Origin: Betaproteobacteria bacterium
GTDB taxonomy: Bacteria; Pseudomonadota; Gammaproteobacteria; Burkholderiales; Ferrovaceae
Reading direction: 5' to 3'
Assembly (NCBI GenBank): GCA_028870615.1
Contig: JAGWPH010000231.1
Span: forward strand, 1 to 16,263
Length of the DNA stretch: 16,263 bases
The notes below the pieces were generated by a model, which was not told where the DNA came from, ran no database searches, and saw nothing but the letters and a program-made list of their open reading frames with translations. Made by a program: the position numbers and the translations under genes. How positions within the stretch are numbered: position 1 is the stretch's first letter; the number at the start of each line of letters is the position of its first letter. This document shows, one piece after another, positions 271-16,171 of the stretch.

Positions 271-298
271 GGTGGAGTAGTTCATAATGCGCCCATAA
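271..298 (+). promoter_or_regulatory. leader with ribosome site and 3-codon mini-ORF overlapping the next start
   Basis: A purine-rich ribosome site (GGTGGAG, 271-277) is well placed for an ATG at 287, which encodes only Met-Arg-Pro and stops at TAA 296-298. That stop overlaps the ATG (298-300) of the Crp-type regulator as TAATG. No in-frame start lies further upstream of the regulator, because a TAA occurs at 268-270. The regulator ATG is itself 20 bases from the ribosome site, so translation may depend on termination and restart at the mini-ORF. Confidence 0.3.
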
Positions 299-996
299 TG
301 GCAGTCCCCGCCCTCTTCCTGCAAACCTTTCCCCTGCTTCGCGCCCTTCCTGAGGCCACCCTCGCTGCCTTGGCCAGCCAGGCGGGCGACCTGGTGTTTG
401 CCAAGCGCGCCGTGGTGCTGCAGAAGGGCCCCCCCACGCCGTCGCTGTGCCTGCTGGCGGAAGGCCGTCTGCAGGCGGTGGACTTTACGATCGACGGCAG
501 GGAAGTGGGGCTTTATTTCATCAATCCGGGGGACTATGTCGGCGAGCTGAGCGTCATTGACGGCCTGGAACAACCCGAATTCATCATTGCCGTGGCCCGC
601 TCCCGGGTCATTACGCTGCCCCGGAATGCGGTACGCCAGGCCATTTTTGCCACCCCCCAAACCGCCGAAAGCGTCACCCTGCGGCTGTCCGCCCGGTTAC
701 GCGCCCAGAGCGCGCAACGGACCATCCTGAGCCTCACGAACCCCCTACAAAAAATTTGCGCCCAGTTGCAGTTGCTGATGGTTTCCACCAGCGCCGCGCA
801 AAACCGCATCAGCAACGCGCCCACCCACCAGGAAATTGCCATCATGGTCAACACCAGCCGCGAAACCGTGACCCGCGTGTTCCAGGTGCTGCAGGCCCAT
901 GGTGCGCTCCAGCGCCAGGGCAATGACCTGGTGCTGGGGGACGCCCAGATGATTATCCAGATTGCCCAGGGCACCCGGGAGTTGCCAAAGCCCTGA
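298..996 (+). CDS. Crp/Fnr-family transcriptional regulator (left copy)
   Basis: A 232-residue protein with the standard two-part Crp layout: an N-terminal cyclic-nucleotide-binding-like beta-roll (about residues 10-125, including PGDYVGELSVIDG at 77-89), a linking helix, and a C-terminal winged helix (about 150-215) with the recognition region THQEIAIMVNTSRETVTRVF at 176-195. The Arg-Ser/Ala pair that contacts the cyclic-nucleotide phosphate in true Crp proteins is replaced here by Pro-Glu after the conserved Gly-Glu, so cAMP binding is doubtful. There is no N-terminal cysteine cluster, so it is not an oxygen-sensing Fnr. Its stop is 7 bases from the stop of the convergent polysaccharide operon. 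Its target is unknown; the neighbouring operon is a reasonable guess. A second Crp-like regulator sits at the other end of the locus. Confidence 0.88.
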   Translation: MAVPALFLQTFPLLRALPEATLAALASQAGDLVFAKRAVVLQKGPPTPSLCLLAEGRLQAVDFTIDGREVGLYFINPGDYVGELSVIDGLEQPEFIIAVARSRVITLPRNAVRQAIFATPQTAESVTLRLSARLRAQSAQRTILSLTNPLQKICAQLQLLMVSTSAAQNRISNAPTHQEIAIMVNTSRETVTRVFQVLQAHGALQRQGNDLVLGDAQMIIQIAQGTRELPKP

Positions 997-1003
997 AGGG
1001 GCG

Positions 1004-3973
1004 TTATTGAAGGCGCAACTCGAGCGCTTCCGCCTGGGCCTTTGCCCGGGCCACGGCCGGCTTGTAGGCGGCATCCAGCACCACCAGCCGTTGCTGGTAC
1101 TGACCCGAATCGGCAGGCGTGCGAAACAGCGAAGTCACTTTGGGCACATAGAGAAAGTGGTTGCCGCAGGAATAGCGCAACCAGAGCACCCAGTCCTCCA
1201 GCGCTTCCATGTCCTCATCAAAACCCCCCCGCTGGATGAACAGCCGGCGCTCGAACAGTACGGACTGGATCGCCATCATGTTGTGGTGAAGCAGGATGTT
1301 GCGATCAAAGGGTTGTTGCAATGGCAAGGGCACCTCGTGGGTGTATTCCTGATATTTCCCGTCCTTCAGATGCGCGCTGTCAGTGAACACTTCCCACGCA
1401 GGGGTGTAGGCAGCCACGGCATCCCTGTCCTGGCGCAGGGCATGAACCAGCACCTCCACATGGTCCGCAAAAAGCAGGTCATCGTCATCAAGAAACAGGC
1501 ACCAGCGGCCGGTGGCTGCGGCCAGCCCGGCGTTCCCCGCCACCGAGCGCCCCACCTTGTCCAGCGCGATGTAGGTGGCCGGACGCCCGGTCAGTTGCCC
1601 CATGCCCGCAACAAGTTCCCGCAGCGTATCGCCCCCATCCTCCACCACGATGTGTTCGATCGACGGGTAGGTTTGGTGGGCGGCCGAGAGCAGGGCCTGG
1701 CGTAAATACAGCGCACGGCCCCGATAGGTGCGCGTAATGATGCTGACCAGGGGACGCTCCGCATCCATGGCAAAAACCGGGACAAATCCCCCCATGCGGG
1801 TCAGGTCGTAATCCCAGCCGTGGAATGGGAAATGCGCCTGCCCCCGGCGCCGGCCCAGGAGCGCTTTCGGCGTACAGAGTGCCAGCCGGGCCAGGGTGCG
1901 CAACACGGCCTTTCTCGACCCCGGATAGGCCTGCGCCCCGAAAAGCACGTTTGCGGCAAGGATCGGCACGGCCGCCAGATCGCCCCAGGTGCCGTACTTC
2001 AGGCGCAGGTACAGGCTGGCAAACGCGCTGCCGGTGTATTGCAGCGGCTTGACCTGGTGGGCCGCTTCATAGGTGTAGTGCATCACCAGGGCCGCCGGAC
2101 AGTAACGGAGCAAAAATCCTTCCCGGCGCAAACGATAGGACAGTTCCACATCCTCGCCGTACATGAACAGGGTCTCGTCGTAGCCCCTCACCTTCTCGAG
2201 AGCACTGCGCCGCAACAGCACACAGGCGTGAGAGTTCCAGTTGGTGGTGCCGGTCACCGGATCGTAAAACTTGGGATGCTCATAGGGCTTCTGCCGAAAT
2301 TCCCAGGCCACCGCCCGATCCACGTCGCTGAGTGCGCTGGCCACGGCCCGGGACAGGGCATCCGGCTGGAAGGTCAAATCCACATTGGTGACCAGACAGA
2401 AAGGCGCGTTTCCTGCCCGGATGGCGGTGTTATGACCCGCTCCGAAACCATGGTTGGGGCGTTGCAGCACTTCCACCCGGCATCCGGAAGCCTGGAGCTG
2501 CGGCACGGCGGACTGGATGGCGGCGAGCGTTCCATCCGTTGAAGCGTTATCCACAAACCGCACCACCAGCCGGGATTTTGGGTAGTCCAGGGCCCGCAGG
2601 CTGTGCACGAAATCGGCCACCCAGCGGCCGCTGTTATGGGTCACGATGCAGACGTCGATCATGGGCGGCTCCGCCGGCAGCCCCACCGCACACAAGGGAT
2701 CTGCGGCCGGATTCTCGCGGGTAAAACGACAACGTTCGGCAACGATCGCCGCGATGGCCGGATCATTGGCTTTTGAACGGGTCAGGAGGCTGCCGAACAC
2801 TTTCAGCCGCGACAGATATTTTCTGAAACGGTGCTTCACGGGAGTGGGCAGGCGCCGGCGCAAACCAGCCAAGGCGGCGCGAAGGACATTGCCGGCCGTG
2901 GCGAAATCGCCGCGGACCAGGTGCCCCACAAATCGCATGGGTGCGGTCACCCGCCAACTGGTGCTGCTGCGCATCTGTGCCAGCGCAGCCAGGAGCTGGT
3001 CGCGGTCGGTGGTCATGGCATTCAGGCTTTCCCGGAGCATGTGGGCTTGCTCCTCCATGAACCGGAGGTCCTGGCTGAGTTGCGTTACCGTTTCGTTGAG
3101 GCGCCCGATTTTTTCATCGCGCTGTCCCAGCGCTTCGTTAAGCTGCCCGATCGTCCCGTCGCGCTGCCCCACCGCTTCGTTAAGCTGCCTTATTGCCTCG
3201 TTGAGCTGTCGTGCCTCTTCATGGCGCTCGGCCACGGCTTTTTCAGCGCGGTGCAGGGCCAGGGATTCCCGGCCCGGTTGCCGGTCCAGTTTCAGGGTAC
3301 CCAGTTCATCGGCCGTGAGAATCAAATAGGCTTCGGCCGCTTCCACCGTTTCCGGCAAGGTATAGGTGCGGTAGCGGTTGAGGCCCGCCATATGCAGGTC
3401 ATAGCGTTGCCGGGCCAACTGGCTGGCAAAACAGGCCATGGCCCGTTGCTTCAGTTGCAGGAAGGGCGTGATGTCGAGCAGGGTGTTGGGCAGCAGCGGC
3501 ACCCCCACTTCGTACATGCCAAGCCGCACCCGCCCTTTCTGACGGATGACGGCGGCAATGGCTGCCTCGGCCACGGCCCGGTGGTCCCGATGCATCTCCC
3601 AGCAGGAGGGTGCAAGCAACAGGTCGGCCTGGGAGTCCGCAAGCCAGCGGCTGATTTTCTCCACAAGATCCGCTCCGGGCTGTACCGAGCCGTCCGGCAA
3701 CCCCCAGAAGTCGGGTGCGCCATAGCCGATGATCGCGGCAGCGGCGCGGGATTCGGAATGACGAATGTCAACCGCCTCGCCACTGCCCTCGCCCGCAAAC
3801 TCATCGGACACCACCGCCACATGGACCGGAATGGCGTGTGACGCCAGACTGGCCAGCGCGCCACCGCAACCGAGGATTTCATCGTCGGCATGGGGTGCGA
3901 GCACCGCCACGCATCGCGCGTCCAGGACGGAGGTGGCCGTATAGGGGACAAAAAAACTTTCCATCGCACTCAC
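1004..3973 (-). CDS. PIG-L deacetylase - coiled coil - GT2 - GT2 fusion protein
   Basis: A 989-residue multidomain protein. Residues 20-220 are a PIG-L/LmbE zinc-dependent N-deacetylase with the metal motif APHADDE (26-32) and HRDH (128-131). This family removes N-acetyl groups from amino sugars or glycolipids. Residues about 225-335 form a coiled coil built on QLNEA-type repeats, followed by SSTSWRVTAPMR (336-347), a linker often seen before glycosyltransferase domains. The first GT-A/GT2 domain (about 437-690) has NVD (530-532) and GED (606-608). The second (about 740-960) has FLDDDD (827-832) and ED (926-927). No signal peptide is visible, so it is probably cytoplasmic. The GTG start overlaps the upstream stop as GTGA; an ATG three codons in (3962-3964) is the alternative. 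It is the last gene of the minus-strand operon. One polypeptide could remove an acetyl group and add two sugars; the substrates are unknown. Confidence 0.85.
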   Translation of the reverse strand: MSAMESFFVPYTATSVLDARCVAVLAPHADDEILGCGGALASLASHAIPVHVAVVSDEFAGEGSGEAVDIRHSESRAAAAIIGYGAPDFWGLPDGSVQPGADLVEKISRWLADSQADLLLAPSCWEMHRDHRAVAEAAIAAVIRQKGRVRLGMYEVGVPLLPNTLLDITPFLQLKQRAMACFASQLARQRYDLHMAGLNRYRTYTLPETVEAAEAYLILTADELGTLKLDRQPGRESLALHRAEKAVAERHEEARQLNEAIRQLNEAVGQRDGTIGQLNEALGQRDEKIGRLNETVTQLSQDLRFMEEQAHMLRESLNAMTTDRDQLLAALAQMRSSTSWRVTAPMRFVGHLVRGDFATAGNVLRAALAGLRRRLPTPVKHRFRKYLSRLKVFGSLLTRSKANDPAIAAIVAERCRFTRENPAADPLCAVGLPAEPPMIDVCIVTHNSGRWVADFVHSLRALDYPKSRLVVRFVDNASTDGTLAAIQSAVPQLQASGCRVEVLQRPNHGFGAGHNTAIRAGNAPFCLVTNVDLTFQPDALSRAVASALSDVDRAVAWEFRQKPYEHPKFYDPVTGTTNWNSHACVLLRRSALEKVRGYDETLFMYGEDVELSYRLRREGFLLRYCPAALVMHYTYEAAHQVKPLQYTGSAFASLYLRLKYGTWGDLAAVPILAANVLFGAQAYPGSRKAVLRTLARLALCTPKALLGRRRGQAHFPFHGWDYDLTRMGGFVPVFAMDAERPLVSIITRTYRGRALYLRQALLSAAHQTYPSIEHIVVEDGGDTLRELVAGMGQLTGRPATYIALDKVGRSVAGNAGLAAATGRWCLFLDDDDLLFADHVEVLVHALRQDRDAVAAYTPAWEVFTDSAHLKDGKYQEYTHEVPLPLQQPFDRNILLHHNMMAIQSVLFERRLFIQRGGFDEDMEALEDWVLWLRYSCGNHFLYVPKVTSLFRTPADSGQYQQRLVVLDAAYKPAVARAKAQAEALELRLQ
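3089..3210 (-). repeat. 42-bp in-frame repeat (21-bp sub-period) encoding a coiled coil
   Basis: CGCTTCGTTAAGCTGCC at 3131-3147 recurs at 3173-3189, exactly 42 bases away. Degenerate copies lie at 3089-3105 and 3194-3210. In the encoded fusion protein this gives QLNEA repeats spaced 7 or 14 residues apart, that is, whole coiled-coil heptads. The length can change in steps of 7 or 14 residues without breaking the frame. Confidence 0.75.
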
Positions 3974-6733: not shown

Positions 6734-7720
6734 TCAGCGAAAATCCGCATCACCGCCCATCAGCCACCAGCGGTCCTTGAGCCGTTGCACCGTCTCGGGC
6801 TGGCGCCATACGATGGCGGGAACCACCACTTCCGTGGCCTGCGCCTGGCCCGCCTTGCCGGCAATGCTTTTGACCGCCATCGGTGTGGCCCAGGCAAAGA
6901 CCCGTTGCTGCCCGCCCCGTTCTGCAATACGCCGCGCCACGTTGACCAATGCCGGCATCTGGCGGCGCGGTGCCACCAGGTCCAGAAGTTCCAGACCATG
7001 GGCGCCGTGATCACGCAATACCACCACCCCCAGGGGATGCCCCGTCAGGCGACGCGACACCAGCAGGACGTGGTAGCGCTGCACCGGGTGCTGGAGATAG
7101 CGATGCCGCAGAAAATCGAAATCGCGCACACCCACCACCCCACCGGACAGGTCTTTTGCCATGCGCTGCCACAGCCGGTTGACGGCCTGGTGGTCCGAAA
7201 CCGTCAGGGGGCGCGCCGAGACCAGCAGCCCATGGCCTGCCCCCTGTGCCGGCCACTGCACCTCGAGAATCCGGTCCATGGGCTGGTAAAGGTTCAATGC
7301 AACGCCCAGACGGCTGGCCCGTTCGGAAGGAAAGCCGAAGGCAAAATCGTATTCCCTGTGGGTGTCCATCCAGCGCGTGATGAACCCCGTGGCCGCCTCA
7401 AAGAAGGGGCCGTGCCGGGTCAGTTTTCCCCGCAGGGCCGGGGTCACCATCACGTCGCCGATTTGCACCGCAGTCACCGGGTTTCCAAAGCACCGTACGG
7501 TGCGCGGCACCCCTCCATAAAAGGCCACGACGTCTCCCGCGAATTCCACCAGGGTGCCATGGCTGCGAGGGTTCTGGTACTTCCAGCGCCACAATGCCGG
7601 CGCCATGTCGTGGCCAAAAGCCCGCCGGAACAGGGCCAGCAAGGCCGGTTCGTCGGCGGCAAGCGCCTCCCTCACCTGCCTTGCGGGGGCCTCCGATGGC
7701 CTGTGGCCGGCATCAATCAT
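6734..7720 (-). CDS. GNAT-family acetyltransferase (acyltransferase)
   Basis: About 328 residues. The N-terminal half has the pattern of GNAT proteins found in exopolysaccharide loci: FRRAFGHDMAPALWRWKYQN (31-50), FYGGVPRTV (67-75), the acetyl-CoA-side IGDVMVTPALRGKLTRHG (87-104), and FGFPSERASRLG (128-139). The C-terminal half (about 170-310) looks like a second, more diverged GNAT-like unit, giving a tandem arrangement. Likely role: acetylation or another acylation of a sugar amine or hydroxyl before export. The ATG at 7718-7720 overlaps the wzt stop by 8 bases, a normal coupled junction. A TTG 12 codons upstream (7754-7756) is possible but would deepen the overlap. A nearby partner is the PIG-L deacetylase domain in the same operon, which could free an amine for this enzyme (inference). 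Confidence 0.7.
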   Translation of the reverse strand: MIDAGHRPSEAPARQVREALAADEPALLALFRRAFGHDMAPALWRWKYQNPRSHGTLVEFAGDVVAFYGGVPRTVRCFGNPVTAVQIGDVMVTPALRGKLTRHGPFFEAATGFITRWMDTHREYDFAFGFPSERASRLGVALNLYQPMDRILEVQWPAQGAGHGLLVSARPLTVSDHQAVNRLWQRMAKDLSGGVVGVRDFDFLRHRYLQHPVQRYHVLLVSRRLTGHPLGVVVLRDHGAHGLELLDLVAPRRQMPALVNVARRIAERGGQQRVFAWATPMAVKSIAGKAGQAQATEVVVPAIVWRQPETVQRLKDRWWLMGGDADFR

Positions 7721-8948
7721 CCTGGGGCTTTGCAACGCTGTTCCAATGATGGGCAAGGGTCACCAGGCCGGGCTCAAGCCAGGACTGTTCTACGGTGATC
7801 TCAATGGCTTTCAGTGCCTGTTCGTACACGTGAAGCATGCGTTCGCAGGCCAGGAATACCGAGACGGTATACGCCCCCCGCAACAGGGGCACCCTGGGAA
7901 ACGTGATCGATGCCACGCCGCGCCCCCGGTCATCGCGGCTCAGCACGAATCCATCGTTGCGTGAATTGACTGTGGCCACCACCGTTCCCGATGCGCTGTC
8001 AATGCCGACGCCGATACAGGGAATGGGCAACTGGATGTCCGATGAAAATTCGATGCGCAAGGTCAGGTCCGATACGCCCGATTGCAAGACCACCCGGCTG
8101 CCCTCCACGCCTTCGGCCCGTGCGCTGATGCGCTCGATGCGCGCCGTCCCCTGGGGGGGCGGCAGGGGGGCCGTTTCGGGCGCACGCTTGATCCCCTCGT
8201 TCCGGGCCATGGGTCCTTCCAGGGATTGGCTATAGGCGGGCAGCACCGAGACGGGGTCGCCCAACTGCACTGCCTTGCCGTTTTCCAGCCACAGCGCACG
8301 ACTGCACACCGCCTCGATGTGATAAAGGGAGTGCGAACACACCAGCACGGTTTTACCCCCTTCCCGCAACTGCATGATCCGGTCAAAGGATTTTCTGGCG
8401 AAGGCCCCATCCCCCACGGAAAGCGCCTCGTCAATGATCAGGATGGCGGGGTCCACACTCGTGGCAATGGAAAAAGCCAGGCGCATGAACATGCCGCTCG
8501 AATAGGTCTTGACCGGTTGGTCGATGAACCGGCCGATGTCGGCAAAAGACAGGATGTCGTCCAGCCGCGCCTCGGTCTCTTCCCGGGTCAGGCCCAGAAT
8601 CGCTGCGTTCATGAAGACATTTTCGCGACCGGTAAATTCCAGGTTGAAGCCGGAGCCCAGCTCCAGCAGCGCCGCGACCCGGCCTTCCACTTCCACCGAG
8701 CCGGTGGTGGGCTGAAGGATGCCGCTGATCAGTTGCAGCAGCGTGGATTTGCCCGCGCCGTTGCGGCCCACGATGCCAAACACTTCGCCCCGTGGAATCT
8801 CGAAACTGATGTCCTGCAATGCCCAGAAGAGTTGTTCGGGATGCAACGCGCGCCCCAGCAGGGCCTGTTTGAGACGGTCCAGGGGATGGGTAAAAAGAGT
8901 GTAGCTTTTGCCCAGGCCGCTGACGCGGATGGCCCAATCAGAGGACAT
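7713..8948 (-). CDS. wzt: polysaccharide ABC transporter ATP-binding protein with C-terminal glycan-recognition domain
   Basis: A 411-residue ATPase of the Wzt/TagH type. The N-terminal nucleotide-binding domain has Walker A GRNGAGKST (61-69), the signature region YSSGM (149-153), Walker B AILIIDE (168-174) and the H-loop histidine (206). It also has LLELGSGFNLEFTGRENV, the family block between Walker A and the signature. After about residue 265 there is a beta-rich C-terminal domain (to about 395), as in Wzt proteins that recognise the non-reducing end modification of their O-antigen. The ATG at 8946-8948 overlaps the permease stop by 11 bases and has AAAGGA about eight bases upstream. A longer reading into the permease gene has no better ribosome site. 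With wzm it exports a complete lipid-linked glycan across the inner membrane. Confidence 0.92.
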   Translation of the reverse strand: MSSDWAIRVSGLGKSYTLFTHPLDRLKQALLGRALHPEQLFWALQDISFEIPRGEVFGIVGRNGAGKSTLLQLISGILQPTTGSVEVEGRVAALLELGSGFNLEFTGRENVFMNAAILGLTREETEARLDDILSFADIGRFIDQPVKTYSSGMFMRLAFSIATSVDPAILIIDEALSVGDGAFARKSFDRIMQLREGGKTVLVCSHSLYHIEAVCSRALWLENGKAVQLGDPVSVLPAYSQSLEGPMARNEGIKRAPETAPLPPPQGTARIERISARAEGVEGSRVVLQSGVSDLTLRIEFSSDIQLPIPCIGVGIDSASGTVVATVNSRNDGFVLSRDDRGRGVASITFPRVPLLRGAYTVSVFLACERMLHVYEQALKAIEITVEQSWLEPGLVTLAHHWNSVAKPQDD

Positions 8949-9750
8949 CGGCAAATCCTTTCCTGACACGCCTGAAAAACAACGCCCCCAGACCGGCCCA
9001 TCCGATCCCGATCAGTGCGTAAAGCGCCAGCGCAGACCAGTGGGGCCAGATCCCCTCAATGGTCACGCGCCGGGTCTCTTCGATGACGAGCGTGAGCGGG
9101 TTGATCATCAGCCAGGGACGCAGGGCCTCCGGCAACGCTTCCACGGGGTAGAACACCGGACTCAGAAACTGCAGGAACGTCACCACCAAACCAATCAACT
9201 GACCCAGATCTTTCAGGTAAACGCCCAGCGCCGAGAGAAACCAGCCTGTTCCCAGCAGAAAGGGAATCATGACCGCCCACACCAGCGGCACGGCGATGAG
9301 CGCAGGCTGGGGCGCACCATGCAACACGGACACGGCCAGCACCAGGACCAGCGCCGCTGTGATCAGGTGAAACAGGGCCGAGAACAACGCAGCCCATGGC
9401 AGGATCTCCAGGGGAAAGACCACACGCTTGACGAGGTTGGGCTGATCCACGATCAGCCGCGGGGCGCGCAGCAGATACTCCGCAAAGCAGTTGAACACGA
9501 TCAGGCCGGCGTACAGCCGGATTGCAAAATCAAAATCATCGCCGTCTGAATTCAGCCAGCGCGCATGGAAGATATGCTGGAAAACGAAGGTGTAAACCGC
9601 AAGCATCAACAGCGGGGTCACAAAGGCCCAGGTCAGCCCGCCATAGGAGCCCCGATATCGCGTACTCACTTCGCGCACTGCAAATTGCCTGATCAGGCCG
9701 CGCTGGGACCAGGGCCAGAGATATTGCCGCAAGGGGAGGATGGAAGTCAT
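8938..9750 (-). CDS. wzm: polysaccharide ABC-2 type transporter permease
   Basis: A 270-residue integral membrane protein with about six hydrophobic segments. Marks of the Wzm/TagG family are REVSTRYRGSYGGLTWAFV (26-44) at the cytoplasmic N-terminus before the first membrane span, QPNLVKRVVFPLEILPW (103-119), YLKDLGQ (179-185) and SPVFYP (197-202). It forms the channel of the ABC exporter whose ATPase is the next gene. The ATG at 9748-9750 was chosen because the family starts close to the REV..RY motif. An upstream extension of the frame (to 9855) would run through an intergenic repeat and the end of the previous gene. It lies 35 bases after the stop of the membrane glycosyltransferase gene, the widest gap in this operon. 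Confidence 0.92.
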   Translation of the reverse strand: MTSILPLRQYLWPWSQRGLIRQFAVREVSTRYRGSYGGLTWAFVTPLLMLAVYTFVFQHIFHARWLNSDGDDFDFAIRLYAGLIVFNCFAEYLLRAPRLIVDQPNLVKRVVFPLEILPWAALFSALFHLITAALVLVLAVSVLHGAPQPALIAVPLVWAVMIPFLLGTGWFLSALGVYLKDLGQLIGLVVTFLQFLSPVFYPVEALPEALRPWLMINPLTLVIEETRRVTIEGIWPHWSALALYALIGIGWAGLGALFFRRVRKGFADVL

Positions 9751-9774
9751 GCGCCCGATTGTAAACCAGAGGAT

Positions 9775-9799
9775 GGGGTCAGACCTCATTCCCCCCTTT
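9775..9799 (+). repeat. interspersed short repeat, GGGGTCAGACCTCATTCCC type
   Basis: A copy of the window's short repeat family sits between the membrane glycosyltransferase stop and wzm. Read on the minus strand, the last codons of the upstream gene (Glu-Arg-Gly-Glu-stop) are made from it. It resembles copies at 14595-14607 (inverted) and 15351-15388. Confidence 0.6.
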
Positions 9800-11450
9800 C
9801 CCAATACAGCGTCCCGTTTTTGGGGATGGTCAGCAAATCGGTATAGGACACCCACCCTTCGGGGGCGTTGTAACGCATGTAGAAGTCCGGGTTGGCAATG
9901 TGCACCCGGGCTGCTCCCACGGCATTGATCGGGACCTTGCTGCCTCCCACGGAGACGAATTCATAGCGGCCCTGGCGCGGAGGCCCCACGCGCCAATTCA
10001 AAAAACTGGAGGCGGCATCGTATCCGATGCCCAGGCTGAAGGGGGCCTGCCGCAGGCTTTCATGCCAGGCTGCAATCGCTCCGGGCAGTTGCTTTCCGTA
10101 GTCCACATAACCCTTCCGTGTTTCGTCGTAACGCCAGACCGTCTGGAAAGGATGCTGCAGATGCTTTAACTGGATCTCATCATAAATGAACTGTGGCCCG
10201 CCCTGCCCTGGATGAACGGATTCGCGAATTTCCTGAATCCCTTTCACCTGTTGATAAGGGACCTCTTCAGGGAGCCACACCAGTTGCGTGGCATCGCCGG
10301 ACCACAGGGGTTGTTCCAGCACCTGCGCCCTGTGCGCCTGCTGCGCGACGTCGATCACGTTCTGGTGCGCCAGCAGATAACAACGAAGCCCCAGCATCAG
10401 CACAAACAGCCCGGCCGGTCCCCGCAGGACCGGCTTCTCCCTGGAAATCGTATCAAGGGACAACACCACCATCACGACACATAACAGCGCGGGAACAAAC
10501 TGGTACCGTGGCGTCCCCAAGAGTCCCCCGTGCACCGGCACCAGCGGCAACAGGACTGCAGTGAGGGCGGCCAACAGGAGGGGCAAGCCCCTGGGGCGAA
10601 GATATAGGGCGCCGGCCAGCGCCAGCAGGGCAAAGCCGACGATCAGGCTGGCACGGGTATCCCCGCCGGACAGCGCCCGGGGCAACTGGCCAAAATGATG
10701 CAGCACCGGTGCAATCGAGATCGGCCCTGCCGCGCCATAGCCCCCCACCCACTCCCCCAGCATCCAGTGCCGCCAGAACAGATAGGTCAATGCGCCGATG
10801 CCATAGGGCAGCAACCCTCGTATCCTGCCGAGGACACGCCCTTGGGGCATCGCCAGCAGGATCAGGGGAAGAAGGGCAAACACTTCCTTTGAGGACAGCG
10901 CCAGGAGATAGGCCCCGGCACCCAGCCAGGCCCTGATGCGGCCCTGCCGGGCTTCCGTGCAATCCAGCGCCCCAAGAAAAAAGAACAGCGACACCAGGCT
11001 GAACATCAATCCGGACACGTAATGACGCGACATCAGTTGGTGCGCCAGGATCACCGTGGGAGGAGAGAGGATGAACAGGGCCGCGCCCGCAAAGGCCCAG
11101 AATCTTGAAGTGAAGCGCTGCAAAATGACATACAGCAGGCCGGCGCAAAGGGCCAGGGACAGCAGGACATGCCCGTAATATCCCGCTGCATCCAGGCCAA
11201 ACAGCGCATGGTCCACATCGAAATCCAGCACCAGCCACGGCGTGAGGTTGGCTGTCGTCAAATCCCGCCAGCTTTGCGGATCGAAAAAATATGCCAGGGG
11301 ACTGTGCGCCATGGCGTAAGCCAGGATGATGGGATCGTCATCCGAGAAAAACCCCCACCCGGTCACGCTCCCATCCACAACCCACAGCACGCCCGCCAGG
11401 GCCAGAACGGCGGCCAGGTCCTGCCAGCGCAACTTAAGCCCGCGGGTCAT
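9786..11450 (-). CDS. polytopic membrane glycosyltransferase (GT-C-like), possible GtrC-type transferase
   Basis: About 554 residues. Roughly ten hydrophobic spans occupy residues 10-362, followed by a soluble domain of about 190 residues, expected to be periplasmic. The first predicted outside loop has SDDDP (36-40), the position where GT-C enzymes carry their catalytic acid, and LSSKEVF (185-191) is a motif often seen in GT-C proteins. These enzymes use polyprenyl-phosphate sugars as donors. With a GtrB-type synthase and a GtrA-type domain encoded just across the divergent start region, it is a good candidate for the chain-modifying transferase of a Gtr system. I chose the ATG at 11448-11450 because it has GGA five bases upstream; an ATG at 11472-11474 would add eight residues. 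Its last four codons fall in a short repeat. No sugar specificity can be assigned. Confidence 0.65.
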   Translation of the reverse strand: MTRGLKLRWQDLAAVLALAGVLWVVDGSVTGWGFFSDDDPIILAYAMAHSPLAYFFDPQSWRDLTTANLTPWLVLDFDVDHALFGLDAAGYYGHVLLSLALCAGLLYVILQRFTSRFWAFAGAALFILSPPTVILAHQLMSRHYVSGLMFSLVSLFFFLGALDCTEARQGRIRAWLGAGAYLLALSSKEVFALLPLILLAMPQGRVLGRIRGLLPYGIGALTYLFWRHWMLGEWVGGYGAAGPISIAPVLHHFGQLPRALSGGDTRASLIVGFALLALAGALYLRPRGLPLLLAALTAVLLPLVPVHGGLLGTPRYQFVPALLCVVMVVLSLDTISREKPVLRGPAGLFVLMLGLRCYLLAHQNVIDVAQQAHRAQVLEQPLWSGDATQLVWLPEEVPYQQVKGIQEIRESVHPGQGGPQFIYDEIQLKHLQHPFQTVWRYDETRKGYVDYGKQLPGAIAAWHESLRQAPFSLGIGYDAASSFLNWRVGPPRQGRYEFVSVGGSKVPINAVGAARVHIANPDFYMRYNAPEGWVSYTDLLTIPKNGTLYWERGE

Positions 11451-11482
11451 TCTTTTCCGATACCATGCGATCATGGCGCTGA
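11451..11482. promoter_or_regulatory. divergent start region with CCATG-CGAT-CATGG inverted repeat
   Basis: Two operons diverge here, with candidate start codons 8 to 44 bases apart. The gap holds an inverted repeat with 5-base arms (11463-11476) and, on the plus strand, two tiny frames: ATG 11465 to TGA 11482, which abuts the next ATG, and ATG 11473 to TAA 11502. No good ribosome site precedes the plus-strand gene and no clear -35/-10 is seen. Promoters must therefore lie within the opposing coding sequences, and the two operons may be co-regulated. Confidence 0.35.
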
Positions 11483-12457
11483 ATGACTTTCTTCATGACT
11501 AAAGATACCACACCAAAAACCGTCAGCTTTGTGCTGCCCTTTTTCAATGAGCAGGGGAACATCGGCAAATTTTTCGAGCAGCTCCTGGCGGTGCTGGCCC
11601 CCTTGAACACGTATCGTTTCGAGTTGATCCTGGTGGATGACGGAAGCCGGGATGGCACCCTGGGCGAGCTGCGCCGCTTTTGCCGGTCCATCCCGTTGGT
11701 CGGACCGCTCACTGCGCACCTGGTGGTCTTCACCAGAAATTTCGGCAAGGAAGTGGCCATGACCGCAGGCCTTGATATCAGCACCGGAGATGCCGTGATC
11801 ATCATGGATACGGACCTGCAGCACCCGCCCGGATCCATTCCGGAATTTCTGGCGCAGTGGGAGGCCGGAGCAAAGCTGGTCATCGGCCAACGCACCAATC
11901 GCAAAACCGATACGCTGGTTTACCGGATCTTCGCCGGGCTTTTCCACGCCATCCACAACAAGCTCTCCAACATCAACCTGCCGCGCGGCACCGGTGATTT
12001 TCGGCTGGTGGATCGCGAGATCGTGGCGCAACTGGTGACCCTGCGCGAACGGCAACGATTTCTTCGCGGGCTGTTTGCCTGGCTGGGTTACGAACCCTGC
12101 ATCGTGACCTACGACGTCCAGAGCCGTCACCAGGGCCGGTCTTCGTTCACCCATTGGCGTTCCTGGAATCTGGCCCTTGAAGGCATTACCAGTTTCAGCA
12201 CGGCACCCATTCGCCTCTGGACCTACCTCGGCCTGGTTGTCGCCATTGCCGGCTTTGGCTATGGGTTTTACGTGGTCCTCATCACGGTGCTTTACGGAAT
12301 CCAGACCCCGGGCTACGCCTCCCTGGTGTCCCTGGTGCTGCTGATCGGGGGGCTCAACCTCATCGGCCTCGGGATGATGGGCGAGTACATCGGCCGGATT
12401 CACGCCGAGGTGAAAGACCGGCCGATTTACGTCATCAAAACCCACGAAACTTTTTGA
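11483..12457 (+). CDS. GtrB/ArnC-type polyprenyl-phosphate glycosyltransferase
   Basis: A 324-residue GT2 enzyme. The catalytic domain has VDDGSRDGT (51-59), the metal motif DTDLQHPP (109-116), GTGDFRLVDR (169-178) and QGRSSF (217-222). Two C-terminal membrane spans follow (about 245-270 and 280-299), and then GEYIGRIHAEVKDRPIY (300-316), the family's conserved end. The family moves a sugar from a nucleotide donor onto undecaprenyl phosphate at the cytoplasmic face, making the substrate that a GtrA flippase and a membrane transferase use. An ATG at 11495 is an alternative start; neither has a clear ribosome site. It is the first gene of the plus-strand operon; the next gene, carrying a GtrA domain, begins three bases after its stop. 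The sugar (glucose, mannose or other) cannot be told. Confidence 0.9.
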   Translation: MTFFMTKDTTPKTVSFVLPFFNEQGNIGKFFEQLLAVLAPLNTYRFELILVDDGSRDGTLGELRRFCRSIPLVGPLTAHLVVFTRNFGKEVAMTAGLDISTGDAVIIMDTDLQHPPGSIPEFLAQWEAGAKLVIGQRTNRKTDTLVYRIFAGLFHAIHNKLSNINLPRGTGDFRLVDREIVAQLVTLRERQRFLRGLFAWLGYEPCIVTYDVQSRHQGRSSFTHWRSWNLALEGITSFSTAPIRLWTYLGLVVAIAGFGYGFYVVLITVLYGIQTPGYASLVSLVLLIGGLNLIGLGMMGEYIGRIHAEVKDRPIYVIKTHETF

Positions 12458-12460
12458 CTG

Positions 12461-13582
12461 TTGAAAGTAAAACATCAATTCCTGCGGTTTGGGCTGGTTG
12501 GCGTCCTCAATACGGGAGTCCATCTTGCCGTTGTCATGCTGGTGCTTGCCAACACCCCATTGCACCAGATGGGCGCCAATGCACTGGCCTACCTGGTGGC
12601 TTCCTCGTTTTCCTATCTCCTGAATGCCCGGTGGAGTTTCAACGCAAGGCACCATTGGCCCGGGTTTCTGCGTTTCCAGGGGGTCAATCTGCTCGGGCTC
12701 TGTGTCAGTACGCTGATGGGTTTTATCGGCGATCTCCTGGCATGGCACTACCTGCTGACCGTGTTGTTGATTGCGCTGATCGTGCCGGCACTGTCGTTTT
12801 TTCTCCATCGTTCCTATACTTTTTTAGCGCCCGCCCCTCCGCCGGATCGGCGCCCGGATTGTTTTAAAAACTTTCCGAAAGTCCGCCCAACCTTGCCCCA
12901 ACCCTACCTTGCCGTCTATGAACAGGAATATATTGCCAACCGGACGGAGGGCGGCACTGCAAATCGCATCGCCCGGTTTCTGGAGTCCTGGATGCATCGC
13001 CAGGTCGCCGCTACGGCGCCCGGGACCCCCCACGCCATTCTTGAACTGGGCGCCGGTTCCCTCAATCACCTGCCCTGGGAGCAGGACTATCAGCGTTACG
13101 ATGCGGTCGAGCCTTTCAAACCCCTCGTTGAAGCCAGTCGCCATCACACTTTGGTCAATACGTTTTATTCCTCCCTGGCGGAGGTGCCGCCGGATCAATA
13201 TTATGATCGCGTCATCTCCATTGCCGTCCTGGAGCACCTTCTGGATTTGCCCGCCGAGATCGCGCGCGCTGCGTTGCATCTCAACGAACAGGGGGTGTTT
13301 TGTGCGGGCATTCCCACCGAAGGGGCCTGGCTCTGGTCCCTGGCCTGGAAATACGGCACCGGCCCGGGGTTCAGGAGGCGCACCGGGCTGGACTACGCAG
13401 TGCTGATGAAACATGAACACGTCAACACGGCAGACGAGATCGAAACCTGCATCCGCTATTTTTTCACGGAGGTCACCATCAAACGGTTCCCGACGCCCTT
13501 CAAGCCATTCAGCCTGTACACCTTTATCCAGGCAAAGGGAGTCCGTCGACTGCAATGCGTGGAGATGGGTGAACCCCAGTGA
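12461..13582 (+). CDS. GtrA-like flippase fused to a class I SAM-dependent methyltransferase
   Basis: A 373-residue protein with two unrelated parts in one uninterrupted frame. Residues 5-122 are a GtrA domain with four membrane spans: the opening FLRFGLVGVLNTGVHL (7-22), LVASSFSYLLNARWSF (45-60) and the ending SFFLHRSYTF (112-121) are hallmarks. After a proline/charged linker (123-145), residues about 150-365 are a class I methyltransferase, with SAM motif I ILELGAGSLNHL (193-204), acidic Glu217 at the end of the second strand, and YYDRVISIAVLEHLLDLP (247-264) as motif II and the following helix. GtrA proteins move polyprenyl-phosphate sugars across the membrane. The methyltransferase half would face the cytoplasm. 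The start is TTG, three bases after the previous stop; no in-frame ATG exists before the first membrane span. The stop overlaps the next gene by GTGA. A methylated sugar or chain-end cap is a plausible product (inference). Confidence 0.82.
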   Translation: MKVKHQFLRFGLVGVLNTGVHLAVVMLVLANTPLHQMGANALAYLVASSFSYLLNARWSFNARHHWPGFLRFQGVNLLGLCVSTLMGFIGDLLAWHYLLTVLLIALIVPALSFFLHRSYTFLAPAPPPDRRPDCFKNFPKVRPTLPQPYLAVYEQEYIANRTEGGTANRIARFLESWMHRQVAATAPGTPHAILELGAGSLNHLPWEQDYQRYDAVEPFKPLVEASRHHTLVNTFYSSLAEVPPDQYYDRVISIAVLEHLLDLPAEIARAALHLNEQGVFCAGIPTEGAWLWSLAWKYGTGPGFRRRTGLDYAVLMKHEHVNTADEIETCIRYFFTEVTIKRFPTPFKPFSLYTFIQAKGVRRLQCVEMGEPQ

Positions 13583-14505
13583 AAATACTCGCCGTCACTG
13601 TGACGTTTCACCCGGACCTTGGTGTGCTGCACCACCAGCTGGAAATGCTGCTGAGCCCCCTCCCGACGCAGTCCGCCCCCACGCAGGTCCTTTTCGTCGA
13701 CAACGGCTCGCCTCCCGACACCGTGACCGAATTGCGCCAATGGACAGCCACCAATGATCGCGTCTCGCTCATGGCCTTCGGGGAAAACCGCGGCATCGCG
13801 GCTGCGCATAACTACGGTATCGCCCATGCCCTGGGACATGGGTTCACTCACGTCCTGCTGATGGACCAGGACAGCCTGCCGGCACCCGATATGGTGGCGC
13901 AACTCGCTGTGGCGATGCATCGGCTGTCCTTAATCGACCCTTATGCGGCCGCCGTCGGTCCGCATTATGTGGATCCGGTTCTTGGCAACCCGCCTGATTT
14001 TGTTCGCATCCATGCGCTGGGCATTCGACGCCATCAGGCGCTGCCGGATCGCCCCATCGTCGGCGTGGACTATCTCATTTCTTCCGGCTCCCTGATTTCA
14101 CTGCAGGCGCTGGGCACCATCGGCGGCATGCAGGAAGCGCTCTTCATCGACTATGTGGACATCGAATGGGGACTGCGTGCACGACGCCTGGGCTGGCACC
14201 TCTACGGCATCTTTGCGGCAAGCATGACGCATTCTCTCGGCCCAAAAGTGATCCGGTTTTTCTGGCGGCGTTTTCCGCTGCACAGTCCGCAACGCCACTA
14301 TTTTGTCGTCCGCAATGCCCTCTGGCTGTATCGCGACGGTGGCCTGCCCCTCTCCTGGCGCATTCCTCATGGCATCCGCCTGATGCTGCGAGTGATGGTG
14401 TATCTGCTGATGGGCGACTCGCGCCTGACAAGGACCAGGTATATCTGGAGGGGTGTCCGCGACGGGCTGCGGGGACGCATGGGGAAACCCGCGTGGATGG
14501 CGTAG
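13579..14505 (+). CDS. rhamnosyltransferase-like GT2 glycosyltransferase
   Basis: A 308-residue GT2 enzyme resembling the RfbF/WbbL-type rhamnosyltransferases of O-antigen and capsule loci. Marks are VTVTFHPDL (6-14), VDNGS (40-44), ENRGIAAAHNYGI (69-81), the metal motif MDQDS (95-99), SSGSLIS (168-174) and FIDYVDIEWGLRAR (189-202). The C-terminal segment is basic and aromatic, with HSLG and a membrane-associating helix, as usual for the family. The start is GTG, overlapping the preceding stop as GTGA; no better start is nearby. It is the last gene of the plus-strand operon and is followed by a strong hairpin. The donor is probably dTDP-rhamnose by family resemblance, but no dTDP-rhamnose genes are visible in the window, so this is open. 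Confidence 0.85.
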   Translation: MKILAVTVTFHPDLGVLHHQLEMLLSPLPTQSAPTQVLFVDNGSPPDTVTELRQWTATNDRVSLMAFGENRGIAAAHNYGIAHALGHGFTHVLLMDQDSLPAPDMVAQLAVAMHRLSLIDPYAAAVGPHYVDPVLGNPPDFVRIHALGIRRHQALPDRPIVGVDYLISSGSLISLQALGTIGGMQEALFIDYVDIEWGLRARRLGWHLYGIFAASMTHSLGPKVIRFFWRRFPLHSPQRHYFVVRNALWLYRDGGLPLSWRIPHGIRLMLRVMVYLLMGDSRLTRTRYIWRGVRDGLRGRMGKPAWMA

Positions 14506-14522
14506 AGGGCAATGGGGGAATA

Positions 14523-14566
14523 AAAGGGGGCCGGACCTCAAACACACTTGAGGTCCGGCCCCCTTT
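14523..14566. terminator. bidirectional terminator hairpin built from two inverted repeat copies
   Basis: A perfect 19-bp inverted repeat, AAAGGGGGCCGGACCTCAA (14523-14541) and its complement (14548-14566), surrounds the loop ACACAC. T-rich sequence follows on both strands (TTTCATTTT on plus, TTTTATT on minus). It lies between convergent genes that stop at 14505 and 14585, so it can terminate both. An outer GGGGG/CCCCC pair extends the stem imperfectly. Each arm resembles the GGGGTCAGACCTCA repeat (12 of 14 bases). Confidence 0.85.
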
Positions 14567-14584
14567 CATTTTCCCCCTCTTTCT

Positions 14585-15340
14585 TCAGTTCACCGAGGTC
14601 TGACCCCTCCCGTTTTTGACCTGCAGCGGGGCCAACACCGTTTCTTCCGCACCGCTCGCCATGGTCTGCAGCACTTGCGGCTGGTGAATGATCAGACGGC
14701 GGTGATCTTTTTCCACAATGCCCTGTTTGACCAATTGCTGCAGCGCGCGCGACACGCTTTCGCGGCTGACATTCGCCATCATCGCGAGCGCCTGCTGGGT
14801 AGGCATGTTTTCGATCACGCCGGTTTTTGTTCCCGGCTGAAGGGTGGCCGTATTGTTGAGCACCGAAAAAATCCGCGCATGGGCGCGTGCCACACTGAGC
14901 GCAGCACGCATCCGTGAAGCATCCCGAATGGTTTTGCAGAGGCGGCGCATGACACGTTCAGCCACCAGCGGATGTTTGGTCATCAGTTCGTTGGCGATCG
15001 CCTTGGGCAAAAAGCCCACCACCGAATCTGCCAGAGAGACCAGTGACGAGGCCCGCGGCTGATCGTCGATGACGGCCACTTCGCCATAGAAATCACCCGG
15101 TTCCAGAAAATGAATGCCCACCTCGCGCCCGTCTTCCGAAAACGAAACCACCTGCAGGCGCCCCGCCACCACCAGCAACAGGGCATCTCCCGCCGAACCT
15201 TGCTGCAGCACCATTTGGCGCATCTGGAAATACTGGAAGCGCACGTGGCCCTCCAGCTGCTTGAGCAGCGCGGGATCGAGCCCCTCGAACAGCTTCTGCT
15301 GCCGGATGGCCTCGGTGGGATTGATGACGATTTTTTTCAT
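14585..15340 (-). CDS. Crp/Fnr-family transcriptional regulator (right copy)
   Basis: A 251-residue Crp-type regulator. The cyclic-nucleotide-binding domain covers about residues 15-130, with PGDFYGEVAVIDDQPRASS (81-99). Here the conserved Gly-Glu and the Arg-Ala of the phosphate-binding cassette are kept, so nucleotide binding is possible, unlike in the left copy. The winged helix (about 155-220) has TQQALAMMANVSRESVSRAL (181-200) as the DNA-reading element. There is no Fnr-type cysteine cluster. The ATG at 15338-15340 is preceded by a good sigma-70-like promoter. The C-terminal residues after about 243 (GRGQTSVN) are encoded by a copy of the short intergenic repeat, so the original C-terminus appears replaced or extended. 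It converges with the plus-strand operon and may regulate it (inference). Confidence 0.88.
   Translation of the reverse strand: MKKIVINPTEAIRQQKLFEGLDPALLKQLEGHVRFQYFQMRQMVLQQGSAGDALLLVVAGRLQVVSFSEDGREVGIHFLEPGDFYGEVAVIDDQPRASSLVSLADSVVGFLPKAIANELMTKHPLVAERVMRRLCKTIRDASRMRAALSVARAHARIFSVLNNTATLQPGTKTGVIENMPTQQALAMMANVSRESVSRALQQLVKQGIVEKDHRRLIIHQPQVLQTMASGAEETVLAPLQVKNGRGQTSVN
14595..14607 (-). repeat. interspersed short repeat GGGGTCAGACCTC overlapping a gene 3' end
   Basis: An inverted copy of the family lies inside the last codons of the right-hand Crp-type gene, where it encodes Gly-Gln-Thr-Ser. It lies 29 bases from the terminator hairpin, whose arms are diverged copies of the same unit, so three copies lie within about 85 bases. 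Confidence 0.6.
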
Positions 15341-15754: not shown

Positions 15755-16171
15755 ATGCGTGTACTGATTGACGAGTGCCTCCCGAGGCAACTTAAGGGCT
15801 GGCTGGCGGGTGTTCATGATGCTGTGACCGTCCAGGAGATGGGCTGGGCGAATGTCAAGAATGGCAAACTGCTACGTGCCGCTAACGATGCCGGATTTGA
15901 TGTTTTTGTAACGGGCGACAAGAACATGTACTACCAGCAGAACTTCGATGGCCTGAATCTTTCTGCCGTCGTTGTCCCGAGTAATCGAAAGCTGCTGGTC
16001 CAGAAGAGTGTGCCAGCGTTGCTTCAGTCTCTGTGCCACATCCAGCCTGGACAAAAGGTCGTCATGACCCTTGGTTCCGATACCGATGCTTGGGAGTCGA
16101 TGCAGTTACACGCCATCGAACTTGAGGTGCAGCACACCACACACGTATTCAAATCTCCAGGTACGCAATAG
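15755..16171 (+). CDS. DUF5615 PIN-like toxin
   Basis: A 138-residue PIN-like protein of the DUF5615 family. Conserved acidic and polar positions are present: IDECLP (5-10), MGWANVKNGKLL (29-40), FDVFVTGDKN (48-57) and QQNF (61-64). PIN-fold proteins use clustered acidic residues and a metal to cleave RNA. The DUF433/DUF5615 pairing suggests a VapBC-like system, though the RNA target is unknown. Family members are usually about 110-120 residues; this one has a C-terminal tail after about 115 (ending KSPGTQ). It starts immediately after the antitoxin stop. It looks intact. An ISL3-like frame begins one base after its stop, so the tail may include sequence disturbed by an old insertion. Confidence 0.85.
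   Translation: MRVLIDECLPRQLKGWLAGVHDAVTVQEMGWANVKNGKLLRAANDAGFDVFVTGDKNMYYQQNFDGLNLSAVVVPSNRKLLVQKSVPALLQSLCHIQPGQKVVMTLGSDTDAWESMQLHAIELEVQHTTHVFKSPGTQ

Follow-up and report, generated by a model that had tools for sequence, protein, structure and literature searches.

A GtrA membrane domain joined to a methyltransferase in a Ferrovaceae surface-glycan gene cluster

In the three-component systems of extracytoplasmic glycosylation, as set out in excerpts of two papers (PMC11127046, PMC7389260), GtrB makes an undecaprenyl-phosphate-linked sugar, GtrA is the proposed flippase, and a GT-C enzyme works outside. Direct flippase evidence for GtrA-type proteins is said to be lacking (excerpt of PMC11127046); their role in flipping is putative, resting on genetics and context, and the substrate that they recognise is little known. 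A methyltransferase (MT) with two predicted transmembrane (TM) helices is described in an Actinoplanes GtrA cluster (excerpt of PMC13390465). A search through titles and the beginnings of abstracts of openly available journal papers returned no description of a GtrA–MT fusion. Such a fusion is encoded in the window, i.e., the whole stretch of 16,263 nucleotides analysed here (contig JAGWPH010000231.1 of assembly GCA_028870615.1, family Ferrovaceae in the GTDB taxonomy).

The fusion protein and its gene cluster

The fusion gene, its parts and its neighbours are located as follows:
7713..8969, minus strand: Wzt-like ABC ATPase with a Wzt C-terminal domain (PF00005 and PF14524, over cut-offs)
8938..9855, minus strand: Wzm-like ABC exporter permease (PF01061, 79.6 bits)
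9786..11474, minus strand: hydrophobic protein of 562 aa, candidate GT-C transferase, divergent from gtrB (multi-span by reading only)
11483..12457, plus strand: GtrB-like polyprenyl-phosphate glycosyltransferase (GT2; PF00535, 102.6 bits)
12461..13582, plus strand: GtrA–methyltransferase fusion, 373 aa (open frame, two Pfam domains, homologues, structure model)
12485..12823, plus strand: GtrA/DPMS transmembrane domain, residues 9–121, with four predicted TM helices (PF04138)
12824..12871, plus strand: linker, residues 122–137, poorly conserved between the window protein and six other fusions
12872..13579, plus strand: class I SAM-dependent MT domain, residues 138–373 (PF13489, model, PDB matches)
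13037..13081, plus strand: SAM motif I stretch ILELGAGSLNHLPWE, residues 193–207, invariant in seven fusions
13579..14505, plus strand: GT2, rhamnosyltransferase-like (TIGR01556, 199.9 bits against a cut-off of 200.55)

The frame at 12461–13582 starts with a TTG codon, at the same residue from which three homologues (P0003–P0005) are annotated, and runs through 373 codons without an internal stop. The original prediction, made from the sequence alone, placed a GtrA domain and an MT in one protein, and both domains exceed their Pfam cut-offs, PF04138 (GtrA_DPMS_TM) with 69.4 bits against a curated 26.1 and PF13489 (Methyltransf_23, residues 172–286) barely, with 29.8 bits against 27; this also holds when the halves are scored separately (72.8 bits for GtrA and 31.0 bits for MT). 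Neither a GT2 domain nor a kinase domain was found in the chain by a Pfam scan to E 1.

AlphaFold2 modelled helices at residues 3–30, 34–60, 66–93, and 97–120 (pLDDT blocks 57–73) and predicted a class I MT fold over residues 131–370 (pLDDT blocks 87–98). The MT model resembles many solved SAM methyltransferases in the PDB, and the substrates of these structural neighbours are molecules of many kinds. The stretch ILELGAGSLNHLPWE (residues 193–207) is what we take to be SAM motif I of the class I fold; its ELGAG core (195–199) and the acidic residue E217 after the modelled strand 210–216 are invariant in all seven fusions. A SAM fold in the downstream half is supported by the Methyltransf_23 match, the model, the PDB matches, and motif I. 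The linker, originally put at about 25 residues, is shorter: since the conserved FPK..RP..LP start of the MT family lies at residue 138, the variable part is nearer 16 residues (about 122–137). The counts of K+R along the N-terminus, the three loops, and the segment after TM4 (2/0/3/0/5) form a positive-inside pattern. Four TM helices with both ends in the cytoplasm are a prediction only, one that fits the GtrA/DPMS family, and the pattern supports a location of the MT domain on the cytoplasmic side.

The gene was originally described as lying between a GtrB-type synthase and a rhamnosyltransferase. The upstream neighbour is a GtrB-type synthase by family resemblance, its best NCBIfam matches being PgfS (261 bits) and ArnC (143 bits), below the equivalog cut-offs of 500 and 529, respectively. 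Downstream a GT2 is indeed present, and its rhamnosyltransferase assignment falls just under the family cut-off. The gtrB stop codon (12455–12457) lies three bases ahead of the fusion start, and the fusion end overlaps the start of the downstream GT2 gene by 4 bases; this arrangement suggests a single operon of three genes. It can also be noted that gtrB and the fusion are in one reading frame, parted by a single TGA and one more codon (12455–12461).

For the 562-aa protein, no Pfam or NCBIfam match was obtained, and its single-sequence structure model, with pLDDT 40, was unusable. No relatives were found among the loci L001–L191 (phmmer, E 1e-4, frames of at least 350 aa), and relatives are present in four other genomes out of 274 of the class, two of them clear (34–37% identity) and two weak. 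A genome of the same genus (G022, 57% complete) carries a near-identical copy of the 562-aa gene and a 97% identical GtrB; the fusion status of this genome is uncertain, and the gene may be lost to a gap, because the contig stops inside gtrB.

Several other features of the window deserve mention. A 989-aa protein (1004–3973, minus strand) combines a PIG-L deacetylase domain, a QLNEA-like repeat stretch, and two GT2 domains; for the repeat stretch, a possible length ruler, the matches to coiled-coil families stay below cut-off. The glycan cluster also includes a lipid A acyltransferase-like protein (PF03279; 5054–6067, minus strand). The cluster is flanked by two related, inward-facing regulators (298–996, plus strand, and 14585–15340, minus strand; 34% identical over 217 columns), the second of which has a Crp helix-turn-helix domain in addition to a cyclic-nucleotide-binding one. 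The last glycosyltransferase gene is directly followed by a palindrome (14514–14570) that shares 83% identity with its reverse complement and has one further match, of 76% identity, in its own genome; GDRPPxEVCP peptides in the tails of the homologues P0004 and P0005 perhaps come from a related palindrome. A DUF5615/PIN-like protein of 138 aa is encoded near the window end (15755–16171, plus strand).

Distribution and conservation of the fusion

The original prediction had suggested looking for the same fusion in other genomes. A homologue search with the fusion gave 222 sequences at E 0.001 or better, and among the best 120 of these, PF04138 and the MT occur together in seven, including the window's own protein (P0002); the other 113 of these 120 carry no PF04138 tag and are 208–308 aa long. 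The six further fusions (P0003–P0008) are 62–77% identical to the window protein, share its domain order and frame, and stem from several sources (ncbi, jgi, ena, lgn), one bearing the name of a Ferrovum MAG; in P0006 and P0007, the annotated start lies about 15 residues deeper in the sequence. Because P0003–P0008 have the same architecture, with a common frame and order, an assembly error joining two genes near 12830–12900, a concern raised at the outset, is ruled out.

The GtrA half alone as a query returned the same seven proteins. When the corresponding half of P0008, the most distant fusion, was used instead, P0008, P0004, and P0005 were obtained together with a 464-aa GT2–GtrA protein; neither of these two region searches brought up any other GtrA+MT protein. 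Among the fetched genome loci, no GtrA+MT frame was found besides copies of the window. In the window's family, two of 32 genomes match: its own, with the fusion, and G002, with only a GtrA-like part in a 172-aa frame. Eighteen of 398 genomes of the phylum match the MT half, and in the 17 besides the window's own, it resides in frames of 237–332 aa. The fusion is the sole PF04138 match found in its own genome (88.4% complete). These data confirm that the fusion is genuine, rare, and clade-limited. A widespread fusion is unsupported as far as searched, only seven GtrA+MT proteins having been found.

In a tree built with FastTree from 134 MT sequences, where 33 of the 131 inner branches are starred, the seven fusions form one group with a support of 83. 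Eight relatives from the same family (L199–L206) have a GtrB 43–45% identical to that of the window beside an unfused, divergent gtrA, and since they keep gtrA unfused, the window lineage differs from its kin.

Between the window protein and the six other fusions, identity is 63–79% in the GtrA half (residues 29–121), 63–80% in the MT half (residues 138–362), and 8–50% in the linker; for P0004, the corresponding values are 77.4%, 79.6%, and 43.8%. Among P0003–P0007, the GtrA half is more alike (86–96%) than the MT half (80–88%), while P0008 is less similar to the other five in the GtrA half (59–61%) than in the MT half (68–71%). The GtrA half is about as conserved as the MT half, unlike the expectation for a mere anchor. 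From a plain anchor, one would expect more drift than from the enzyme, which weakens a purely anchoring role.

This bears on a possible but rather unlikely explanation, namely that the protein is a tethered glycan methyltransferase acting on a cytoplasmic substrate other than the GtrB product, e.g., the end of the growing chain read by Wzt_C for export, with the GtrA domain serving mainly as an anchor. The window's own cluster does contain Wzm and a Wzt with a Wzt_C domain, and WbdD chain-terminating methyltransferases paired with Wzt_C-type exporters are described in an excerpt of PMC11127046. However, besides the similar conservation of both halves, the lack of a kinase domain in the fusion (Pfam scan to E 1) argues against such a role.

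In Listeria GtcA, the residues reported to be essential include R95 and N132, the latter reported as needed for activity (excerpt of PMC7389260). When GtcA positions are placed by spacing only, without the GtcA sequence, the F74-like residue F60 is kept in all seven fusions, and the N132-like position is serine in all seven and serine or threonine in 7 of 28 other GtrA proteins of the class; at the R95-like position, placed in the same way, no arginine occurs in the fusions or in any of the 28 class GtrAs. By this placement, R95 and N132 lack a clear-cut counterpart in the fusions, and the serine at the N132-like position is a point against the pathway proposed below.

Stand-alone relatives of the methyltransferase

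Outside the seven fusions, the MT half occurs alone. Relatives of this half were found in 151 stretches of the genome collection, and the best 80 (L002–L081), from 18 phyla, were kept. Within 1.5 kb of the MT, a GtrB is present in 29 of the 80 loci, a separate gtrA in six, and an ArnE/F-like small protein with four TM segments (small 4-TM) in 11; at least one of these three partners occurs in 39 loci and in 10 of the 18 phyla, ten loci with a flank under 1.5 kb being retained in the counts. Within 5 kb, the numbers rise to 37 for GtrB, 7 for GtrA, 16 for the small 4-TM protein, and 51 for any of them.

With the same flank, any partner was found in one of 30 PF13489 (Methyltransf_23) and none of 30 PF05050 (Methyltransf_21, FkbM) control loci (Fisher p of 3e-6 and 2e-7, respectively). 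In this comparison, the MT loci span 18 phyla, while each control set comprises the 30 loci of the window's phylum that scored best, and the small 4-TM and GtrB profiles, partly built from counted loci, favour the MT loci. Taken by phylum, the MT count is 16 of 38 in Pseudomonadota and 10 of 11 in Acidobacteriota. Against the pooled 60 controls, the p values are 6e-9 for GtrB, 0.013 for the small 4-TM protein, and 0.04 for GtrA. The partner is encoded on the same strand as the MT for six of six nearby gtrA genes, 24 of 29 GtrB genes, and 6 of 11 small 4-TM genes. A further 18 loci from the 398 phylum genomes, mostly weak MT matches, had a partner in four cases by a count made with an earlier GtrA profile that included seeds read on the wrong strand; the close relatives among them are L114, with GtrB, and L115, without a partner.

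In four loci, GtrB, MT, and gtrA all lie within 1.5 kb, in the orders gtrB–MT–gtrA (L003, L070), gtrB–gtrA–MT (L073), and MT–gtrA–gtrB (L025). On the tree, the presence of gtrA within 5 kb, seen in seven loci, requires seven changes, at least four judging by well-supported branches. Such scattered linkage in varied orders is the pattern expected of cooperating partners, joined in one lineage. One could also propose a neutral fusion of neighbouring operon genes, in which each half works by itself and the joint brings no advantage. Joining would need little, because in six loci separate gtrA and MT genes are already found on the same strand, no more than 1.5 kb apart. We regard a neutral fusion as highly improbable, since seven sequences have retained the joined state, and conserved both halves, down to 59–63% identity; an advantage of the joint as such remains putative.

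The small 4-TM proteins were found near stand-alone MT genes in L007, L010, L023, L033, L049, L050, L051, L063, L072, and other loci. Ten of them, not all located within 1.5 kb, were scanned, each giving an EamA match (E 0.1 or better) and most also a match to TMEM234 or the Small Multidrug Resistance family of Pfam; only those of L049 and L063 exceed a Pfam cut-off. ArnE and ArnF are described as members of the small multidrug resistance family in an excerpt of PMC7389260. The ArnE/F-like proteins stand beside the stand-alone MT as if replacing GtrA. GtrB and a small flippase candidate occur together within 5 kb in nine loci, and in 28 of the 37 loci with GtrB within this distance, no small flippase was identified.

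Exporters offer a further view of the tethered methyltransferase. A Wzt-type exporter ATPase lies within 5 kb in 8 of the 80 MT loci, against 37 with GtrB, an uneven comparison because the search sensitivities were unequal (one sequence at E 1e-20 for Wzt and a profile at E 1e-25 for GtrB). On the other hand, 29 of the 80 loci have no GtrB, GtrA, or small 4-TM partner within 5 kb, which would suit a methyltransferase acting on another substrate. Overall, the chain-capping role proposed originally as one of two options is weakened by the Wzt count and the conserved GtrA half, and what speaks for it in the window is the Wzm/Wzt_C pair.

Frames of 420–800 aa with at least seven hydrophobic segments (Kyte–Doolittle) occur in 48 of the 80 MT loci. 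Of nine such proteins scanned, that of L007 exceeds the PMT_2 cut-off, those of L013, L025, and L053 match PMT_2 below cut-off, and those of L070 and L017 match DUF6311 and DUF6798, respectively, with nothing over cut-off for the rest. Two Caulobacteraceae loci (L033:4012–5958 and L046:4279–6717) have open frames of 648 and 812 aa, respectively, with the MT match at the C-terminus; these could be other fusions or merely open GC-rich frames.

Proposed role and comparison with known systems

Taken with the window's gene content, the fusion suggests that a sugar is methylated just before it crosses the membrane. With moderate confidence, we propose that the protein belongs, as a component with two domains, to an extracytoplasmic glycosylation system of the GtrA/GtrB/GT-C type, in which the MT methylates the lipid-linked sugar made by GtrB prior to flipping. 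By analogy with its family, the GtrB-like GT2 would load undecaprenyl phosphate with a sugar at the cytoplasmic face; the MT domain, tied to this face via GtrA, would methylate the lipid-linked sugar, most likely on a hydroxyl; and the GtrA domain, again by family analogy, would move the methylated undecaprenyl-phosphate sugar to the periplasm. There, the methylated sugar may be attached to an exported glycan by an enzyme of the GT-C kind, for which the divergent 562-aa protein is a candidate. Being tied to the flippase, the MT would meet its substrate before the latter leaves the cytoplasmic face. The originally suggested coupling of methylation to flipping is in line with the linkage of the partners across phyla; methylation of the lipid-linked sugar and flipping by GtrA are putative, and so is their obligatory coupling.

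A stronger version is that methylation gates flipping, the GtrA domain moving only, or preferentially, the lipid-linked sugar marked by its own MT. The fusion itself and the linkage of the MT with two candidate flippase types are compatible with this hypothesis, and a precedent is offered by Halobacterium salinarum, where, according to an excerpt of PMC4335974 citing Lechner 1985b, transient methylation of the dolichol-linked glycan was suggested to matter for membrane delivery, and N-glycosylation was prevented in cells unable to methylate. Since in that account the methyl group is found only on the lipid-linked glycan and N-glycosylation needs it, a licence to flip is conceivable beside a lasting decoration. 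Nevertheless, we consider gating improbable: linkage alone indicates a common substrate or pathway, described GtrA systems are reported without an MT (excerpts of PMC11127046 and PMC7389260), and Haloferax without methylation still N-glycosylates with the tetrasaccharide, although the complete pentasaccharide was not seen (excerpt of PMC4335974).

Under the preferred reading of methylation before flipping, the natural fusion names a partner enzyme for GtrA, whose recognition is otherwise little known. Together with the stand-alone MT near GtrB, GtrA, or ArnE/F-like proteins in 10 phyla, it points to a hitherto unassigned and perhaps common step in which lipid-linked sugars are modified ahead of flipping. 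The lipid handled by a GtrA protein would carry the methyl group as a mass tag, and therefore the question of the GtrA substrate becomes testable. If gating were true, the licensed flippase would parallel, within one bacterial protein, the transient methylation of lipid-linked glycans reported for Halobacterium, and in other phyla the stand-alone MTs would play this part next to GtrA or ArnE/F-like proteins.

Several described systems share features with the window. In the Arn system (ArnC, ArnD, ArnE/F), the sugar carried by undecaprenyl phosphate is changed by ArnD prior to translocation, as proposed here for the MT; ArnE/F-like proteins are, moreover, neighbours of the MT family. The Arn reaction is a deformylation, and the genes are separate, while here methylation is inferred and the MT is fused to a GtrA-type membrane domain. 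For Halobacterium salinarum methylation, we know of no GtrA fusion. The likeness there is methylation at the lipid-linked stage before translocation, inferred in our case; the archaeal substrate is an oligosaccharide on dolichol phosphate, and the methyl group is absent on the protein (excerpt of PMC4335974).

WbdD-type chain terminators likewise feature an MT in a cluster with a Wzt_C exporter, but the window fusion has no kinase domain (Pfam scan to E 1) and is joined to GtrA instead. In DPMS-type GT2–GtrA fusions, the GtrA/DPMS membrane domain is also joined to another domain: in six long frames from class loci, GtrA occupies about residues 234–356, behind about 235 residues of presumed GT2, and the homologue P0122 carries GT2 and GtrA by its Pfam tags. 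In the window fusion, by contrast, GtrA is at the N-terminus, ahead of the MT. Identity of the window protein as a DPMS-type fusion was rejected, the chain being without a GT2 domain (Pfam scan to E 1).

The closest resemblance is to the GtrA/GtrB/Gtr(type) O-antigen glycosylation of Shigella and Salmonella, with a GtrB-like synthase and a GtrA domain side by side in a surface-glycan cluster and a hydrophobic transferase candidate next door. The window differs in that GtrA bears a C-terminal MT, the GT-C enzyme is only a candidate, and the cluster includes an ABC exporter of the Wzm/Wzt kind. The new element is the joining of an MT to GtrA within the known GtrA/GtrB/GT-C type of three-component glycosylation.
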